In this document: positions 13,433-25,449 of the stretch, in pieces
How the letters are laid out: every line of letters starts with the position of its first letter
Position numbering within the stretch: position 1 is the first letter of the stretch
Assembly (NCBI GenBank): GCA_945882415.1
Contig: CAMCWC010000001.1
Span: 248,001 to 312,000 of the forward strand
Length of the DNA: 64,000 nt
Source: Chthonomonas calidirosea
Lineage (GTDB): Bacteria > Armatimonadota > Fimbriimonadia > Fimbriimonadales > Fimbriimonadaceae
Direction: 5' to 3'
Notes under the pieces: generated by a model
The model's database searches: none
The model's input: the letters and a program-made list of their open reading frames with translations, nothing else
Told to the model about the DNA's origin: nothing
Made by a program: the position numbers and the translations under genes

Positions 13433-14737
13433 ATGCTTGCCATCCTGAATTACATCTCGTACGGCGTCGTGCTGATCATCATCCTGATGGTGCTCGTCGC
13501 CGCCCACGAATACGGTCACTACCTCTTCGCCCGAATCTTCAACATGGGCGTCGAAGAATTTGCGATCGGAATGGGCAAGCCAAAGGTCGTTACATACCTC
13601 CGAAAGCGGCACCAACTCCCGGTCTCCACAAACGACGAACTGCCCGAAGGCGTTCAGCCTGGCGATGAATTCGAAATCCAATCGCAAGGAATGTCGATGG
13701 AAGGCGGAACCGAGAAGCGGTTTGCCACCCTCAAGCGCACCGATAAAGGCCTCGCGTTGGAAGAAGTCACCGACTTCACCATCCGACCTTATCCCGTCGG
13801 CGGCTTCGTCCGAATCAAGGGCATGATCCCGCAGTCGGATGGCGGCGAGACCCGCGTGCCCGGCGGTTTCTATAGCAAGCCACCGCTCCAGCGGCTCATC
13901 GTGCTTTTCGCTGGACCGCTATTCAGCATCATCACCGGAATCATTCTGCTCGTTCCGGTCTTCATGTTCGATGGAAAAGAAGAGCCGCTGAACAAGCCGA
14001 TTCTTGGCGCCGTTGAAGCCAAAACCCCGGCCGACGTCGCTGGCCTCAAGCCCGGTGACCGCATCACGGCAATCGATGGTGCGCCGATCACTACGTTCTT
14101 CGAGATGATCCAAAAGGTGCGAACCAGCGCCGGAAAGGAACTCATTTTCAGCATCGAGCGCCAAGGCGTCGCGCTTGACCGAAAGGTTATGCCCGCACAA
14201 GATGCCGCGCCAAGTCCTGTCCTCGGCCCCGATCTGCGTGACTCCGGTACCACCGCGATTCAAGGAAAAATTGGCGTTGCTTACAGCGTCGAGAAAGCCA
14301 AGCTATCGTTCGGTGACGCCCTCGCCACCGCCGTAGACACCCCGCGCCGAGCCATCTCGGGGATGGTCGTCACCTTCAGCAGCATCGCTGGCTTTGAGCG
14401 CTCCGTCGGCGGTCCCGGAACCATGTACAAGCTGTCCGAGCAAGCGGTGAACCTAGGCTTTGCCAAGGTGATCTCGCTCGCCGCGCTACTTAGCATCTCC
14501 GTCGGCATCTTCAATCTCCTCCCGATCTACCCGCTCGATGGAGGTCAGATGGTCGTGGCCTTTGTGGAAATGCTACGCGGCGGCAAGCGGCTCAGCATGC
14601 GCCTGCAAGAGCTCATCGGCACCGTCGGCTTCGCCATGGTCCTCCTGCTCTTCGTCAGCGTGCTCATCGTCGACGTCAAACGCTGGATGCCGAAAGGTGA
14701 GTCGGGCCCGGCTCTGGTCGCACCGACGAAGAAGTAA
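13433..14737 (+). CDS. rseP: Site-2 protease RseP (RIP metalloprotease)
   Basis: This 434-residue inner-membrane zinc protease cleaves anti-sigma factors and remnant signal peptides within the membrane. It has HEYGH at residues 25-29, a PDZ domain around residues 185-250 ('AGLKPGDRITAIDGAPI'), and the third-ligand motif 'NLLPIYPLDGGQM' near the C terminus. A polar insertion around residues 60-110 separates the first helix from the PDZ part. It is co-transcribed with dxr. Its 3' end lies 4 bases from the convergent capsid island. Confidence 0.95.
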   Translation: MLAILNYISYGVVLIIILMVLVAAHEYGHYLFARIFNMGVEEFAIGMGKPKVVTYLRKRHQLPVSTNDELPEGVQPGDEFEIQSQGMSMEGGTEKRFATLKRTDKGLALEEVTDFTIRPYPVGGFVRIKGMIPQSDGGETRVPGGFYSKPPLQRLIVLFAGPLFSIITGIILLVPVFMFDGKEEPLNKPILGAVEAKTPADVAGLKPGDRITAIDGAPITTFFEMIQKVRTSAGKELIFSIERQGVALDRKVMPAQDAAPSPVLGPDLRDSGTTAIQGKIGVAYSVEKAKLSFGDALATAVDTPRRAISGMVVTFSSIAGFERSVGGPGTMYKLSEQAVNLGFAKVISLAALLSISVGIFNLLPIYPLDGGQMVVAFVEMLRGGKRLSMRLQELIGTVGFAMVLLLFVSVLIVDVKRWMPKGESGPALVAPTKK

Positions 14738-14741
14738 GCCC

Positions 14742-15041
14742 TTACGTCGTCAGAATCAACACCTTCGCGACCGTCGTCCCCGCGAACCGCAGCGGCGTCA
14801 CCTGCCGGACCAGCCACGACTTGCCGTCGTGAACCAAGCCCGACCCGACCGGGGTCGGGTCGTCGTAGGGAACATACAACGCCCGAATCGGGCGCAAAAC
14901 CGCGTCCGCCTCGTTCGTCGTCAGGAAATCTCGGTATCGACGCGAAGTAGCAATCAATCCCTTGCGAGTCGTCCCCGAAACTACAAAGCTGTCACCCAGG
15001 CGAAGAATCACCGCCCGAAAGCGTTGCTGCGCCGCCGTCAT
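14742..15041 (-). CDS. Small phage-type protein, putative head-tail joining protein
   Basis: This protein is about 99 residues from the ATG at 15041, which shares an ATGA overlap with the stop of the upstream gene; that classic translational coupling fixes the start. The sequence (MTAAQQRFRAVI ... VHDGKSWLVRQVTPLRF) is mostly beta-strand-like and ends at 'AKVLILTT'. Size, position after a connector-like gene and overall pattern resemble phage head-tail joining or tail-completion proteins, but no clear family signature is seen. It is the last gene of the capsid island. Confidence 0.55.
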   Translation of the reverse strand: MTAAQQRFRAVILRLGDSFVVSGTTRKGLIATSRRYRDFLTTNEADAVLRPIRALYVPYDDPTPVGSGLVHDGKSWLVRQVTPLRFAGTTVAKVLILTT

Positions 15042-15424
15042 GTCGAGAGCACCCCGCCGCCTTGCGTCGCCGCGCCGGTGCGCCAAAACGGCATCAGCCG
15101 TGCCATGCCCTGAGCCTTTAAGCCGCTCGGATCAGCGAGGTCCCGGACCGGCGGACGAAGTTCAAACCCATCCACCGAAACCGTATCCGCCGCCCCGACT
15201 TCGCGCAAGCGCTCCGCCAATGCCTCTCCCGCAATCCACTCCGTTGCGCCGAGATTGCAAATCGCCAGCACTCCGGAGTTAGAACCGCTTACCGCCGAAG
15301 CCTGCAAACTCGCCTCCAGCGCCGGAAGCACCTCGTCTATTAGGGCCTGAAGCGCGGCGTCCTGGTCAGAACCAGAAACGCCGCACTTCGCCTTAATCCG
15401 GGCTAGGCTGACGCTAAGCGCCAA
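15038..15424 (-). CDS. Putative phage head-tail connector protein
   Basis: This 128-residue helical protein begins 'MALSVSLARIKAKCGVSGSDQDAAL' in pattern (ALSVSLARIKAKCG, then DQDAALQALIDEVLPALE). That pattern of a short N-terminal helix followed by a 'D..L..LI.......IE' helix is typical of gp6-like head-tail connectors. It lies directly downstream of the major capsid gene and overlaps the next small gene by 4 bases. The assignment rests on position and pattern and is moderate. Confidence 0.55.
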   Translation of the reverse strand: MALSVSLARIKAKCGVSGSDQDAALQALIDEVLPALEASLQASAVSGSNSGVLAICNLGATEWIAGEALAERLREVGAADTVSVDGFELRPPVRDLADPSGLKAQGMARLMPFWRTGAATQGGGVLST

Positions 15425-15488
15425 GCCCGTTTCACCCGTTCAAGTGCAAGCACCAACCAACGTCGAAGCTGCTCCTTCCAGCGCGCCA

Positions 15489-16424
15489 TCAAGAGAAGCC
15501 TCCAAAGGCGGTCTGCCAAAGCCCATAGCCAACGTTGTATCGGCCGCGAACGCCGTAATAGAAACGATCTCTCATGAAGGCACTCTCGGCACCCGAACTT
15601 TGATCCAGCGCATCGAACTCAACCGGAACGTCGCTTCGCTGCTGCAAAATCATGCTCCTAATCGGCCGCGAGCTATCCAGCAAGAACCAGTGGTTCGCGG
15701 ATGCTCCATTGAGGAACGGCGAAACCACCACGTTCAGCCGACCCTGCAGCATGTTCTTGTACGGCGTACTCGCGGCAGTATCGACCGCGTTGCCCGCGTA
15801 GACCACGACCGGGCTTTCTACCAACTCCATCGCCGTCCACTGCAAAGCCGGTCCGACCAGCAGCGTGTCCGGCATCGTTCCAAGCGGAACTCCCGCGTCG
15901 TCAGGAACGAGCATCATCGCGCTGATCCCCGCCGTAATCGCCTCCGCGCTCAGGGCCGCCGCAGAGCGGTTGCTCACGGCGGCACCGTTCACCGGGTGCG
16001 ATGAACTGAAGAACGAAACGCCATCGTGCCCGAGCGCCGTCGCGCCCGCCACGAGTCCTTGCACCACCAATTGGTGCCGGTGCGCCGCCACTCGCGTAGC
16101 CAAGTCGCGAACCCGAAGCCGAATCAAGTCGAGCTGGTCGTCCTCAATCGCCTTGCGATCCACCGCAATCGTCGCTTCAAAGGTCTTGTCCTCGATGCTC
16201 GTCGCGAAGGCGCTCAAGCCCTGCGGCGTGCGCTCGTCCAGAAACTCGCGCATCGCCGGTGGCGAGCCAAGCCACGCGTACTTCTGCACCGGTTGGGTGG
16301 TGTTAATCACCGTCGCCAACCGCTCGGCAACGCTGTTGTCCATCACGTTTTGATAAGCCGCCGCAAACTCCGCGCGGAGTCCAGGCAGCAAAAGGGTCGG
16401 AATGTCAGATCGGGTTAATGCCAT
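15489..16424 (-). CDS. Mu-like major head protein (gpT family)
   Basis: This 311-residue protein resembles the Mu gpT-type major capsid subunit: 'LLPGLRAEFAAAYQ' at the N terminus, 'YAWLGSPPAMREFLDER' near residue 50, 'ATIAVDRKAIEDDQLDL' near 85, and a C-terminal 'RDRFYYGVRGRYNVGYGLWQ'. These blocks are well conserved in gpT-like proteins. The protein is full length with no frameshift, so the gene appears maintained. It sits between the decoration gene and the connector-like genes, the usual capsid order. Confidence 0.8.
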   Translation of the reverse strand: MALTRSDIPTLLLPGLRAEFAAAYQNVMDNSVAERLATVINTTQPVQKYAWLGSPPAMREFLDERTPQGLSAFATSIEDKTFEATIAVDRKAIEDDQLDLIRLRVRDLATRVAAHRHQLVVQGLVAGATALGHDGVSFFSSSHPVNGAAVSNRSAAALSAEAITAGISAMMLVPDDAGVPLGTMPDTLLVGPALQWTAMELVESPVVVYAGNAVDTAASTPYKNMLQGRLNVVVSPFLNGASANHWFLLDSSRPIRSMILQQRSDVPVEFDALDQSSGAESAFMRDRFYYGVRGRYNVGYGLWQTAFGGFS

Positions 16425-16429
16425 AGGTT

Positions 16430-16870
16430 TTACGAAACGTGGTTGTCGATCCGAACGCGCACTCCTGCCACGCCGGTAGAGGTCATCTCAAGGCCAACAA
16501 TGCGGCCGACCTTGTAGTTGTTGGTAAGCCCAGAAGTTGAAACCTGAACCTCCCAATCCGTGTTTGCGTACACCTCGGCACCAAGGTTGGCGAGCGTCGG
16601 CGTGAAGCCCGAAGCGGCTTTGAAGACAAATGAGCCCGACTTGGCGGCGTTCAGTTTCTTCGCTCCGGCTTCCCCGGCCGAGTTGTCCGCCGATTCCGTC
16701 GCGACGCCAACGAACTTCAGGTTCGCCGTGCCGTGAGCCATCGCCACCGCGTGGCCGTCGGAGTTAAGCCCCAGCAGGGCTCCCTTGTAGATCGCGGCGT
16801 TCGTGACCGCGTAGCCGATGATGAGTCCCGGCTTTTCGTATGTTTCGAATGGTTTTGCAAGTGCAGGCAT
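16430..16870 (-). CDS. Capsid decoration/stabilisation-like protein (DUF2190-like)
   Basis: This 146-residue beta-rich protein has the pattern 'NAAIYKGALLGLNSDGHAV' and 'KFVGVATESADNSAGE', followed by 'GRIVGLEMTSTGVAGVRVRIDN'. This is the usual appearance of small phage proteins of the DUF2190 kind, which coat capsids or share the head-decoration fold. It lies between the protease and the major head gene, 5 bases from each, a spacing that implies one transcript. Confidence 0.65.
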   Translation of the reverse strand: MPALAKPFETYEKPGLIIGYAVTNAAIYKGALLGLNSDGHAVAMAHGTANLKFVGVATESADNSAGEAGAKKLNAAKSGSFVFKAASGFTPTLANLGAEVYANTDWEVQVSTSGLTNNYKVGRIVGLEMTSTGVAGVRVRIDNHVS

Positions 16871-16875
16871 AAGGT

Positions 16876-17646
16876 TTATCGCTGTTGAGCAATCGCGCTC
16901 AGGGAAACGTCGGGGAAGTGGCGGCGATAGAATTCCGCTTCTTCCGGAAGCAAAAGGTGGTTAGAGAAGTCAGCCTTTTCCGGCACGAGTTGCTTGGTAA
17001 AGTCTCGGCTCGGCATCTGCTGAATCAGCTCCTGCGCCAGCAAGCGAATCGGAACGGACTTGCCGTCCACGTCCATCACTTCGCGGCTACGAAAAAGCGC
17101 GGTCGCGGCGGCCCGCTGGCACGGCAACAGGCGACCCTCTTTGATGAAGCGATCCGCCTCAACTTTCGCCAGCTGGTTCTCCCGCTCGTTTCGAAGCGCT
17201 TCATAAGCCATCCGAAAGTCGATCGGATCAATCGTCGTCGCCTCAAACCGAATGAGGTCGTCATGAAACAGCCGCGCAGAGGCGACGCGCGGATTTCGCA
17301 CCACCGAAACTTCACGAATCGCGGTGAGGTCCTGCGAAATCCCCAGAGAAAGCGCCCCTGCCCCCGATTTGTCGATCAGCGCGTTGGCCTCTGGCGAAAG
17401 CGACAGCACGCCGAAAAGCTCGTTCTCCACCGCCTCGACCTCGATTAGAAATCCAAGCTGAAGCGGAGACTCCGCGTGCTCCACCAAAACGGGCACCGGC
17501 TGGCTGAATCCGTTTGCGAGCGCTTGCAAGGTTTCCGGCGCAACCGTCACCCCTTTGTCTGGGTAGTCGCCCGCCTCGAAAAGTTTTGCCCGGCGCCGTA
17601 CCCAGTCGGCCCCTGGTCCTTTGTCAAGAAAATCAATTGACTGCAT
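16876..17646 (-). CDS. Mu-like phage capsid maturation protease with scaffold tail
   Basis: This protein of about 256 residues belongs to the Mu gpI-type prohead protease group. N-terminal blocks include 'AKLFEAGDYPDKGVTV', 'PVPVLVEHAESPLQLGFL' (His region) and 'ALSLGISQDLTAIREVSVV' (Ser region), then 'RNPRVASARLF'. The C-terminal 120 residues are helical and charged, as expected for an internal scaffold. ATG 17646 is preferred over the in-frame TTG at 17652. It is the first gene of the capsid island and has two inverted repeats just upstream. Confidence 0.8.
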   Translation of the reverse strand: MQSIDFLDKGPGADWVRRRAKLFEAGDYPDKGVTVAPETLQALANGFSQPVPVLVEHAESPLQLGFLIEVEAVENELFGVLSLSPEANALIDKSGAGALSLGISQDLTAIREVSVVRNPRVASARLFHDDLIRFEATTIDPIDFRMAYEALRNERENQLAKVEADRFIKEGRLLPCQRAAATALFRSREVMDVDGKSVPIRLLAQELIQQMPSRDFTKQLVPEKADFSNHLLLPEEAEFYRRHFPDVSLSAIAQQR

Positions 17647-17656
17647 AGTCAAAGAA

Positions 17657-17676
17657 TAGTAGACAAAGTTCTACTA
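17657..17676. promoter_or_regulatory. Inverted repeat TAGTAGA-N6-TCTACTA before the capsid island
   Basis: A perfect 7-base inverted repeat with a 6-base spacer ends 11 bases upstream of the protease ATG, covering the position where a ribosome binding site would be. It could be an operator for a repressor or an mRNA hairpin that keeps translation low. No Shine-Dalgarno is visible for the gene. Confidence 0.45.
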
Positions 17677-17691
17677 AGTCAACCATCAAAA

Positions 17692-17772: not shown

Positions 17773-18129
17773 ATGATGACTTCGGCAAGACAGCTGAGCG
17801 TTTCTGCCTTCACGATGCTCTTCGTCGTGGTTGGGCTGTCGTTCCGTCCAAGCATGAACTGGCTGGTTCTCGACCAGGAATACGCCAAAACCGACGGCAT
17901 GATCGGGAAGACCAGCAACGATGTCATCGCCGCCCTGGGCGACCCAACCGAGGTCTACAACAAAAAGCGATTCTGGGAGCGAGACCGGTGGGGAAATTTC
18001 CGCGGCTGGGATCCCGATCCCAGCTACCCGATCGGCGAAAGAGCGTGTTGCTACGTGATCGGAACAAAACGCATCGTCTTCTACTTCGCCCGCGATGTCG
18101 TAACCGCCGTCAAAACCTCTTATTCGTAA
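17773..18129 (+). CDS. Small exported hypothetical protein, BamE/SmpA-like pattern
   Basis: This 118-residue protein has an N-terminal hydrophobic signal segment (residues 8-24). It is followed by 'GKTSNDVIAALGDPTEVYN', the short G-x-s-x-x-V-x-x-x-L-G-x-P motif found in BamE/SmpA-fold domains. The rest is rich in aromatic and basic residues and ends in a beta hairpin ('IGTKRIVFYFARDVVTAVKT'). It is divergent from the capsid island. The role is unknown. Confidence 0.6.
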   Translation: MMTSARQLSVSAFTMLFVVVGLSFRPSMNWLVLDQEYAKTDGMIGKTSNDVIAALGDPTEVYNKKRFWERDRWGNFRGWDPDPSYPIGERACCYVIGTKRIVFYFARDVVTAVKTSYS

Positions 18130-23222: not shown

Positions 23223-23253
23223 AATCCGCATATGCGGCTGAATCAACGAGGGA
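23211..23253 (+). repeat. Duplicated thrS-tail/leader block, copy 1
   Basis: The block starts ATCAATAAGTAGAATCC, spans the last codons and stop of thrS, and runs through the start of the first paralogue (ATGCGGCTGAATCAACGAG). Near-identical blocks precede the second (23958) and third (24718) paralogues. This shows that the duplication unit began inside the thrS 3' end. Confidence 0.85.
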
Positions 23254-23969
23254 GCCTTTCAACCAGGCTCCCGTCGCTTTCTTGGCAGAGACGATTGCGC
23301 CTTCGAAGGTCAACCAGAGTAGTGTTGTTCACGCTGACCATGTGCGCGGGGATGATCTTGCTGACCCGCGAATACGTATTGTTCCGACTTGGCATACTCC
23401 CGTATTTGGCCGCTAACTTTTTTCTGGTGGCAATTGCCTGGCTCATTGCAGGAACGTTGCCCCGGAAAACTAAGGCTGTCTATGTTGCCATATTTTTAAT
23501 GCAGCTTGGATCTATTTGCAATTCCGTTAGCAGGGTTTGGCGATCCATGGATTCTGAGCGTACTGGCAAGTTGCAGATTCAAAGGCTCAAAACTCTCGCA
23601 CAAGCCACCCAACTCTATGCCGCAGACCATTCCGAGAAGCTGCCGCTCGCTAGCATATGGATGGACTCACTTTCCGACCGGGTCAAAGAAGCGGATTTCA
23701 ACCTTGGAACGACCTTCCTACCGCCAAAGCCGGGCTACCACGTCGCAATGAACTCAGATCTAAGCGGCAAAAGCCTTGCTGAGCTTGAATCGAAAAACAA
23801 ATACTGCTTGTTCTTCATCTCGTACAAATCGGAACGAAACGCGAATGACGCACTCGACTCAATCACAGAAGAACAGCAGGGCGTTACCATATCCGGCTTC
23901 GTTCGACCGTTTTCCGAAGCCGTTCCGGTGAACAATCCAAGCAACGTTCCCAGTGTCATCAATAAGTAG
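23232..23969 (+). CDS. Membrane-anchored DUF1559-like protein, tandem copy 1
   Basis: This 245-residue protein has a basic N-terminal tail, two to three transmembrane helices (about residues 32-50, 56-78, 83-100), then an outside domain. That domain starts 'KLQIQRLKTLAQATQLYAADHSEKLP' in pattern (LKTLAQATQLYAADHSEKLP), like the body of H-X9-DG pseudopilins, and has 'GYHVAMNSDLSGKSLAELE'. It lacks a prepilin leader. It is the first of three tandem paralogues and starts 9 bases after thrS. The role is unknown. Confidence 0.75.
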   Translation: MRLNQRGSLSTRLPSLSWQRRLRLRRSTRVVLFTLTMCAGMILLTREYVLFRLGILPYLAANFFLVAIAWLIAGTLPRKTKAVYVAIFLMQLGSICNSVSRVWRSMDSERTGKLQIQRLKTLAQATQLYAADHSEKLPLASIWMDSLSDRVKEADFNLGTTFLPPKPGYHVAMNSDLSGKSLAELESKNKYCLFFISYKSERNANDALDSITEEQQGVTISGFVRPFSEAVPVNNPSNVPSVINK

Positions 23970-23998
23970 AATCCACGTATGCGTCCGAATCAACGAGG
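23958..23998 (+). repeat. Duplicated thrS-tail/leader block, copy 2
   Basis: ATCAATAAGTAGAATCC is repeated here exactly and forms the last codons and stop of copy 1. It is followed by the start of copy 2 (ATGCGTCCGAATCAACGAGG). Confidence 0.85.
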
Positions 23999-24683
23999 CA
24001 GCCTTTTCAGTGGCCTGCTCGGAAACAAATCTGAGCGGAGACGCATTCGCCGAGCTACCTTTTACGTTTTATTTACGCTTAGCATCTGCGCAGGGATGAT
24101 CATGGTCACGCAAGATTACGCGTCCCTTCGCGTAGGCGTCGAAGTACATACCGCCGCAATCTTCTTTCTAGCTATCCTGCCCTGGCTAGTTTTCGGCGCG
24201 TCTCGCCGTTTTCCGAGGAGTCTCGAAGGGCCATTCCTTACCACCCTGATTGGATTTGGTTGCCTTATTCTCGGCAAAGTGTTCCTGTCTTCAAACGCGG
24301 TGAATAACTCGACTGCGCAGTACAGAAAGCTCAAGACACTATCTCAAGCCACATTAATGTACGCGAGCGATCACTCGGACGCATTGCCGCCCGCGAATGT
24401 CTGGATGGATTCGATCGCAAGCCGCGTGACCGAGGAGGATTTCATCCTCGGAAAGAATCTGATGCCAGCACAGGATGGCTACCACGTCGCCTTGAACTCA
24501 AACTTAAGCCAAAAGTCTCTCGACAAATTTGAGTCTCCGGACGATAGCATCCTGTATTTCCTCTCGATCAAGTCCAAACGAAATGCGAACGACGCGCTTC
24601 ATTCAATCACGGAGCTGCGTCGCGGCGTGAATTTATCCGGGAACATCAAGCGAGTTCCGGAACCTACTTCTTCCAGGCCTTAG
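23979..24683 (+). CDS. Membrane-anchored DUF1559-like protein, tandem copy 2
   Basis: This 234-residue paralogue of the preceding gene keeps the same architecture. The N terminus 'MRPNQRGSLFSGLLGN' is followed by transmembrane helices and the domain 'LKTLSQATLMYASDHSDALP ... VWMDSIASRV'. 'GYHVALNSNLSQKSL' and 'SKRNANDALHSITE' are shared with copies 1 and 3. Divergence among copies is substantial in the membrane part and lower in the outside domain, suggesting selection on that domain. Confidence 0.75.
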   Translation: MRPNQRGSLFSGLLGNKSERRRIRRATFYVLFTLSICAGMIMVTQDYASLRVGVEVHTAAIFFLAILPWLVFGASRRFPRSLEGPFLTTLIGFGCLILGKVFLSSNAVNNSTAQYRKLKTLSQATLMYASDHSDALPPANVWMDSIASRVTEEDFILGKNLMPAQDGYHVALNSNLSQKSLDKFESPDDSILYFLSIKSKRNANDALHSITELRRGVNLSGNIKRVPEPTSSRP

Positions 24684-24717
24684 TCAACGGATTCCTAAAC
24701 TCGCGTGCCCCTGGCAC

Positions 24718-24760
24718 ATCAATAAGTAGAATCCGGCTATGCGGTTGAACGAACGAGGAA
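24718..24760 (+). repeat. Duplicated thrS-tail/leader block, copy 3
   Basis: ATCAATAAGTAGAATCC appears a third time, 35 bases after the stop of copy 2. The preceding bases CCCCTGGCAC resemble the thrS sequence CCTGGCGCAC, so this copy keeps slightly more thrS-derived sequence than copy 2. Here the block is non-coding until the ATG of copy 3. Confidence 0.85.
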
Positions 24761-25449
24761 GTCTGTTCACCGGGCTTCATTTTTCGAACTCTCGGCGGAA
24801 GCGTTTGCGCATTCGAAGAACCACGTTCTATCTGCTTTTCTTGCTGTCCATTTGGGCAGCCGTGATCCTGATCACCCTTGATCTCGTGTCGTTCCGCGTA
24901 AGCGTCGAGGCTCATTCCGGGACAATCTTGTTTCTGATTTTGATCCCTTGGTTTGCGGTAGGAATGTCTCGTCGACGCAAAACGCAATGCGAAGGAGCCA
25001 CCCTTACGACTCTCATCGGGCTTGGTTGCCTCATCGGTGGCCCAGTTTTCTCGCAGGCAAGGGCGTCTGCAATCAAGGAAGTTCAATTTGAAAAGTTAAG
25101 GGCAATTTCGCGTGCTACCTTCGAGTACGCAAGCGACCACTCCGAAACCCTGCCGATCGCAAATGTCTGGATGGATTCGATCTCAGATCGCGTATCCGAG
25201 GCGGACTTCACCCTTGGAAAGAATATCGTCCCGCCGCAAGATGGCTACCACTTCGCGATGAACTCAGACTTCAGCAGCAAGGCGATAAGCAAAATCGAAA
25301 GGCCAGATGATCGCATCCTCTACTTCATCTCGCACAAAGCAGATCGAAACGCCAATGACGCCCTTCATTCACGGATCGAAAAAACGGTCTGCGCAAAAGT
25401 AAGCGGCAGCGTGACAATACTCGGCAAACTTACTTCTTCGAAACCTTAG
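24739..25449 (+). CDS. Membrane-anchored DUF1559-like protein, tandem copy 3
   Basis: This 236-residue third paralogue starts 'MRLNERGSLFTGLHF', with transmembrane segments at about residues 32-50, 57-75 and 90-108. The outside domain has 'LRAISRATFEYASDHSETLP', 'NVWMDSISDRVSEADFTLG', 'GYHFAMNSDFSSKAI' and 'DRNANDALHSRIEK'. Its 3' end overlaps the convergent gene by 20 bases. No prepilin cleavage motif is present. Confidence 0.75.
   Translation: MRLNERGSLFTGLHFSNSRRKRLRIRRTTFYLLFLLSIWAAVILITLDLVSFRVSVEAHSGTILFLILIPWFAVGMSRRRKTQCEGATLTTLIGLGCLIGGPVFSQARASAIKEVQFEKLRAISRATFEYASDHSETLPIANVWMDSISDRVSEADFTLGKNIVPPQDGYHFAMNSDFSSKAISKIERPDDRILYFISHKADRNANDALHSRIEKTVCAKVSGSVTILGKLTSSKP

Follow-up and report, generated by a model that had tools for sequence, protein, structure and literature searches.

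What is a compact set of phage capsid genes doing in a bacterial chromosome? In the stretch of 64,000 nucleotides that we analysed (the window, G000:C1:248001-312000, from G000, a draft genome of 3.36 Mb), five open reading frames on the minus strand, at 14742-17652, sit close together, with rseP on one side and a small host gene on the other, and all of them are open. The initial annotation, made from the sequence of the window, read them as a possible domesticated capsid and offered three possibilities: an encapsulating shell, a piece of a gene transfer agent (GTA) split over the genome, or the capsid set of a satellite. Here, we ask which of these fits best, using the identity of the genes, their partners elsewhere in the genome, their arrangement in other Armatimonadota and the selection acting on them.

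Results

Five intact genes encode a gpT-type capsid module

The coordinates and open frames of the five genes were confirmed, as was their arrangement in one tight unit between rseP (Peptidase_M50 2.9e-44) and the small host gene (Table 1). By its family matches, the third gene from the promoter is certain to encode a major capsid protein of the gpT type, and its profile also matches the solved gpT capsids 8rkc and 9jod; together with the decoration protein, it bears out the gpT-like head and decoration genes of the initial annotation. The first gene probably starts at the ATG at 17646. Its PHROG match to head maturation protease is weak, and H59, S102 and E114 are invariant in a 31-row alignment of orthologues; we propose H59 and S102 as a putative protease catalytic pair, since they lie in IEH and LSxG motifs that we take to be catalytic from the motifs of prohead proteases.

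Table 1. Features of the island and its immediate flanks (positions in the window)
Feature	Position	Strand	Length and evidence
Small host gene	17773..18129
Probable promoter	17657..17687	-	GATGGTTGAC and perfect inverted repeat TAGTAGA-N6-TCTACTA
Prohead protease/scaffold (putative)	16876..17652	-	~256 aa from likely ATG; orthologues in 10/10 genomes compared
Capsid decoration (head) protein	16430..16870	-	146 aa; phrog_1731 E 1.7e-20
Major capsid protein, Mu gpT family	15489..16424	-	311 aa; PF10124 3.4e-55; phrog_371 5.9e-61
Tiny ORF between gpT and adaptor	15403..15489	-	28 aa, MARWKEQLRRWLVLALERVKRAWRLASA; sequence read directly
Candidate portal adaptor (head-tail connector 1)	15038..15424	-	128 aa; PF05135 E 0.0032, under cut-off
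Stopper/head-closure protein (predicted fold)	14742..15041 (or to 15086)	-	99 aa; AlphaFold model
rseP	13433..14737

Sequence-profile searches returned no significant PDB relative for the protease, the adaptor or the stopper, and it was structural models that settled the fold of the stopper and, weakly, that of the adaptor. The AlphaFold model of the former (pLDDT 88) resembles the stoppers of T1, lambda, Pam3 and R4C with Z 9-10 and the RcGTA virion protein 6tba_3A with Z 7.9; by its predicted fold, this protein is a stopper. The neighbouring gene is weakly supported as a portal adaptor by its PF05135 match and by a model with weak resemblance to SPP1 gp15 and the SaPI1 neck (best E 0.27), and it is kept in 36/61 relatives. 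These are the two genes that had been called connector-like, a description that holds. The slot occupied by the tiny ORF is filled in relatives by a gene for an amphipathic protein of ~68 aa and/or one for a membrane/coiled-coil protein of ~90 aa.

The packaging genes lie elsewhere in the same genome

That no terminase or portal lies on either side of the island is correct within the window and incorrect for the genome. One Terminase_6N gene (6e-13) and one strong Mu-type portal gene (PF06074 2e-61) are found at G000:C1:235.2-237.5 kb, on the same contig; the distance is ~26 kb to the capsid genes and 10-13 kb to the left end of the window, so that the search for these genes that had been recommended finds a matching large terminase (TerL) and a matching portal, each in one copy. 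Contig 7 has another portal, with a weaker match, as part of an ordinary prophage (L083) that encodes a terminase, a capsid protein and a protease of its own. With a portal counted as the matching type on its score and its place beside the terminase, gpT and the GTA-type portal are both present in 38/61 genomes and both missing from 19/61 (Fisher p 1e-11). The exceptions are G035, G056 and G060, with the portal and no gpT, and G007 (77% complete), with gpT and no portal. The Walker A motif CGRRWGK, the DE pair and the nuclease aspartates D267, D322 and D404 of TerL are invariant in 38/38 terminases which, together with the low dN/dS given below, argues that the packaging motor has been kept active.

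No gene for a small terminase subunit (TerS) or for lysis was identified in G000. PHROG scans of all genes of the window and of ~180 kb of flanking contig recognised no further phage module, and a reciprocal-hit comparison of the G000 and G034 neighbourhoods found no tail gene or extra phage gene in common.

The set is under purifying selection and is inherited with the host

Between G000 and its sister G014, whose gpT proteins are 97% identical, dN/dS by the Nei-Gojobori method is.029 for gpT,.029 for decoration,.041 for the protease,.053 for the adaptor and.112 for the stopper. These values of 0.03-0.11, far from the neutral value near 1, are joined by.025 for the portal and.051 for TerL, and conserved neighbours (trpS, dxr, rseP and thrS among them) give.016-.056. 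Genuine and undamaged, the five island genes are subject to strong purifying selection. The gpT profile has matches in 119/291 Armatimonadota genomes, of which almost every one has a single copy and open frames, a count that includes families f10, f11 and f13 with different locus content, carriers of the exact set being fewer. Broken frames in relatives, which would have pointed to decay, occur in a few assemblies (G043, G223 and G234). That the capsid is domesticated, as first suggested, is supported by both the dN/dS values and the open frames in nearly all of the gpT-bearing genomes.

The gene set spans the order Fimbriimonadales and other Armatimonadota families, nearly always in single copy. 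Trees of gpT, TerL and host ThrS for 25 genomes are concordant (Spearman 0.80-0.86, against a maximum of 0.42 over 2000 permutations), and each of the families f1, f2 and f5 forms one clade in both the gpT and the TerL trees; this agreement of the trees shows that the set has been inherited vertically.

Contiguous in some families, the set is dispersed in others

In the more distantly related families f31, f33, f34 and f35, the whole set forms one contiguous cluster of 8-10 kb with the order TerS-like, TerL, portal, protease, decoration, gpT, a variable slot, adaptor, stopper, XhlA-like, holin-like and endolysin, some members being without some of the small genes. The TerS and endolysin calls are backed by PHROG and Pfam (phrog_7344 1.7e-5; phrog_2649 1.7e-26; Amidase_3 3e-33), and the names XhlA-like and holin-like have weak matches or topology alone behind them. 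In f32 and f19, the terminase lies outside the fetched cluster region. In some relatives, the slot after gpT holds a GDSL esterase or a DUF2961 protein, both surface-glycan-type enzymes. Of the missing phage genes that might have adjoined the island in relatives, those for packaging and lysis do so in these other families, and those for tails do not.

Within the taxonomic order to which the window belongs, the genes occupy two to four unlinked loci, with two in G000. Terminase and portal are apart from the capsid genes in most f1 and f5 genomes (G034 has both together), and f2 has up to four loci: in the closed genome G041, the portal is at 1.23 Mb, the capsid genes at 1.41 Mb, TerL at 2.27 Mb, and a fourth locus at 2.56 Mb consists of adaptor, stopper and two short genes. 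The host genes around the loci mostly differ from genome to genome. In most genomes, the loci are 20-860 kb apart, a spacing that would make their joint packaging implausible, depending on the size of the head. We infer, reading the order of transitions from present-day states, that the contiguous cluster is ancestral and that dispersal came later.

Family f13 (L258, in the closed genome G105, and L259) shows a second variant, with TerL, a ClpP-type protease, decoration, gpT, several short genes and a GH25-type endolysin, directly followed in L258 by a gidA-like gene. Its one tail signal is a single 86-aa match (1.5e-5) to a family labelled tail fibre, and no other tail genes were recognised.

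Gene order argues against a tail

No contiguous cluster contains recognised tail genes: the space between stopper and lysis genes is empty, and it is there, between neck and lysis genes, that phages with the same capsid type have their tail genes. Among gpT carriers, matches to Baseplate_J, PhageMin_Tail, TMP_3, Phage-tail_3 and HK97-gp10_like are sporadic only. Baseplate_J is absent from G000, and the Phage-tail_3 matches in G011, G024, G026 and G029 lie 10-25 kb from second, prophage-type portals. Because neither of the two tape-measure families searched picked up the probable tape measure of prophage L083, absence by profile alone is weak and leaves room for divergent, dispersed tail genes; gene order carries more weight. 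No transposase, integrase or tail gene adjoins the island genes.

A probable promoter motif is common to capsid and terminase modules

In G000, the 10-mer of the probable promoter precedes the protease as well as the unlinked terminase, with four occurrences in 284 kb; the inverted repeat that accompanies it at the protease is not upstream of the terminase. More broadly, GGTTG[ACT]C precedes 40/62 module starts versus 15/206 background genes. These counts are only suggestive of shared control of the capsid and terminase modules, because the motif resembles a -35 box, the genomes are related and, in f2, most separate portal genes have no such motif upstream.

Viral relatives are distant

The nearest annotated phage homologues are less than 36% identical. 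A degenerate-pattern search of viral contigs with a single protein returned nothing, whereas a profile search did find homologues, in IMG/VR, at 43-47% identity. Several of the closest IMG/VR contigs (L164, L165, L174 and L176) show the gene order of the set and could be clusters from chromosomes that were classed as viral, and the siphophage L167 combines a 43%-identical capsid with F, Neck1, tape measure and Dit.

Discussion

The island is probably the capsid module of a domesticated DNA-packaging head that is dispersed in the host genome, GTA-like and apparently tail-less. A published six-point definition (PMC9662315) describes gene transfer agents as built from caudoviricete-derived proteins into caudovirion-like particles, fully endogenised and often in multiple loci, inherited vertically and co-diversifying with the host, packaging mostly random host DNA, with a genome of their own that is not or cannot be fully packaged, and delivering the packaged DNA to other cells. 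Caudoviricete origin, endogenisation over multiple loci and vertical inheritance are all found here, and on present evidence the Armatimonadota set, known from its genes alone, appears to work like a gene transfer agent. A GTA piece split over the genome is the best-fitting of the options first listed, given that G000 has the packaging genes at another locus. Few lineages are known to have functional gene transfer agents, and we found no published description of the Armatimonadota set, in a literature of which the subscription part was covered in part.

Comparison with known systems highlights both similarities and differences. Like RcGTA, the alphaproteobacterial type I agent, the set has a caudoviricete-derived head, portal, terminase, adaptor and stopper (the last with the fold shared with 6tba_3A), is endogenised over several loci, and is vertically inherited under purifying selection. 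Unlike RcGTA, it occurs in a different phylum, combines a gpT-type capsid with a Mu-type portal, has no tail genes that we could find, and has its core head genes themselves split over two to four loci; the bias toward low-cost amino acids reported for alphaproteobacterial GTAs is absent. With the Mu-like gpT phages (JBD30, Faecalibacterium phage Mushu and L167), it shares the gpT capsid (28-47% identity), a Portal_Mu-family portal and a decoration protein. However, these phages have tail and other phage genes, whereas no tail, replication or integration genes lie beside the modules here, and the linked transposase and contractile tail genes of a Mu-like prophage were not found. The closest terminases are those of Thermus phages P23-45, Riverbug and the like (TerL 28-30% identical over ~90% of its length), which are tailed and very distant in sequence.

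Among other explanations, the strongest, which we nevertheless find unlikely, is a conventional tailed GTA that injects DNA via its own tail, the tail genes being dispersed and too diverged for the families searched. Stopper and adaptor are tail-docking parts, the GTAs with characterised genes known to us all have tails, and the overlooked tape measure of L083 denotes a limited search sensitivity. However, in several families the contiguous clusters lead from TerL past the stopper and on to lysis genes without any tail gene on the way, the fourth locus of f2 is made of four short genes only, and the five tail families are sporadic in gpT-bearing genomes. It is less probable that the heads borrow the tails of resident prophages and are completed only upon induction of a helper prophage, in the fashion of cf-PICIs. 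These capsid-encoding satellites have terminase, portal, protease, capsid and neck proteins and no tail, which is also the content of the present set (within the sensitivity of the tail families for the lack of tail genes), and an ordinary prophage, L083, resides in G000. Yet satellites are contiguous and mobile, whereas these genes are dispersed over two to four unlinked loci, single-copy and inherited with the host, for which reason a satellite's capsid set is not favoured; moreover, the relatives' clusters have lysis genes of their own, and recognisable tail-bearing prophages are sporadic among carriers.

Lower again do we rate DNA-filled heads made for a purpose other than transfer, be it DNA disposal, release as a public good on lysis or storage of nucleic acid. 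This would account for an intact packaging motor and closure proteins with no tail or injection device recognised, but the endolysin genes and the occasional GDSL esterase or DUF2961 point to extracellular action. An encapsulin-like cargo shell without DNA, suggested by the HK97-type fold to which gpT belongs and by capsid genes that look isolated within the window, is highly improbable: encapsulins need no protease, portal, terminase, adaptor or stopper, all of which are kept here, and the portal is co-inherited with a terminase whose catalytic residues are intact. Least credible of all are decaying remnants of ordinary Mu-like prophages gained many times independently, since the caudoviricete-derived proteins and a few assemblies with broken frames are outweighed by low dN/dS, single copies, host-congruent trees, frames open in nearly all carriers and the lack of an adjoining transposase, integrase or tail gene. 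The dN/dS values, the congruence of the trees and a terminase inherited along with the capsid led us to reject both the decay and the empty-shell readings.

For the dispersed DNA-packaging head that we favour, we tentatively propose a fuller version, quite possible although we hold it with less confidence than the general reading: a deeply conserved Armatimonadota GTA without a tail, in which scattered head genes are independently regulated, lysis frees closed, DNA-filled heads, and the DNA enters relatives without an injection machine. The steps that we propose for the general reading are the following. First, the capsid and packaging modules would be transcribed from similar TTGAC-type promoters, the motif being visible in the sequence and co-regulation our reading of it. 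Second, judging from their families, gpT, decoration protein and protease would assemble with the portal encoded elsewhere into a prohead, which the terminase encoded 26 kb away would fill with available host DNA, the presumed cargo because no phage genome exists for packaging. Adaptor and stopper, by their predicted folds, would then close the portal. Cell lysis would free the filled heads, as the lysis genes of relatives with contiguous clusters suggest. Finally, DNA would reach other cells by an apparently tail-independent route. Speculatively, this could be natural competence, ComEC being present in 17/17 genomes tested (and common generally), or it could involve capsid-borne glycan-active proteins such as those encoded in some relatives. 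In this scheme, the formation of particles, the loading of host DNA, lysis in the species of the window and delivery to other cells are all predictions from the gene content.

Our findings suggest a new kind of gene-transfer particle. If the proposal is correct, gene transfer agents would reach into a phylum that has been little studied, in the form of a head-and-packaging set that is inherited vertically at the level of the phylum and has no recognisable tail genes, and living genomes would display all stages between a compact cluster and full dispersal. It would then become testable how a bacterium keeps unlinked capsid genes coordinated and whether DNA transfer needs a tail.

Variants of the capsid set and other observations

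Family f13, found in the closed genome G105 (locus L258) and in G111 (locus L259), represents another kind of cluster with head, packaging and lysis genes. Both clusters have gpT and decoration proteins in common with the main set, but the terminase is a different one, the protease is of the ClpP type and the endolysin of the GH25 type; essentially no tail genes were recognised in either. In L258, the endolysin is followed immediately by a gidA-like host gene.

Partial sets also occur. The 99%-complete genome G035 has a terminase and portal without gpT or adaptor (C3:425703-427986), possibly reflecting loss under way. The gpT frame is broken in G043 (C66), G223 (C2, locus L247) and G234 (C26), as is the portal frame in G223, which may denote either assembly error or decay. 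In G015 (C29:294, L066) and G018 (C1:1389858, L046) a further terminase paralogue, belonging to the same family, lies apart from the portal. Some contiguous clusters carry inserted genes (see table).

Genes inside contiguous clusters, and the source-genome prophage
Feature	Location
HigBA-like toxin-antitoxin pair	L039:2839-3664
GDSL esterase gene	L039:7317-8015
Aquaporin-family gene	L252:4908-5681
DUF2961 protein gene	L249:10509-11549
Prophage L083: own terminase, portal, ClpP-type protease, phrog_29 capsid, probable tail genes	G000:C7:146001-166000

Within the genus (G000-G019), the genomes of capsid carriers are small, at 2.6-3.5 Mb, and those lacking the capsid are large, at 3.3-6.5 Mb (Mann-Whitney p 4e-4, uncorrected for relatedness). 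Elsewhere in the window, a tandem array (23232-25449) comprises three paralogous genes of ~235 aa each, the first two of which show high dN/dS in their gene-called parts (0.25-0.29 versus the sister genome).

The source genome also harbours an ordinary prophage, L083, which could in principle supply tails.
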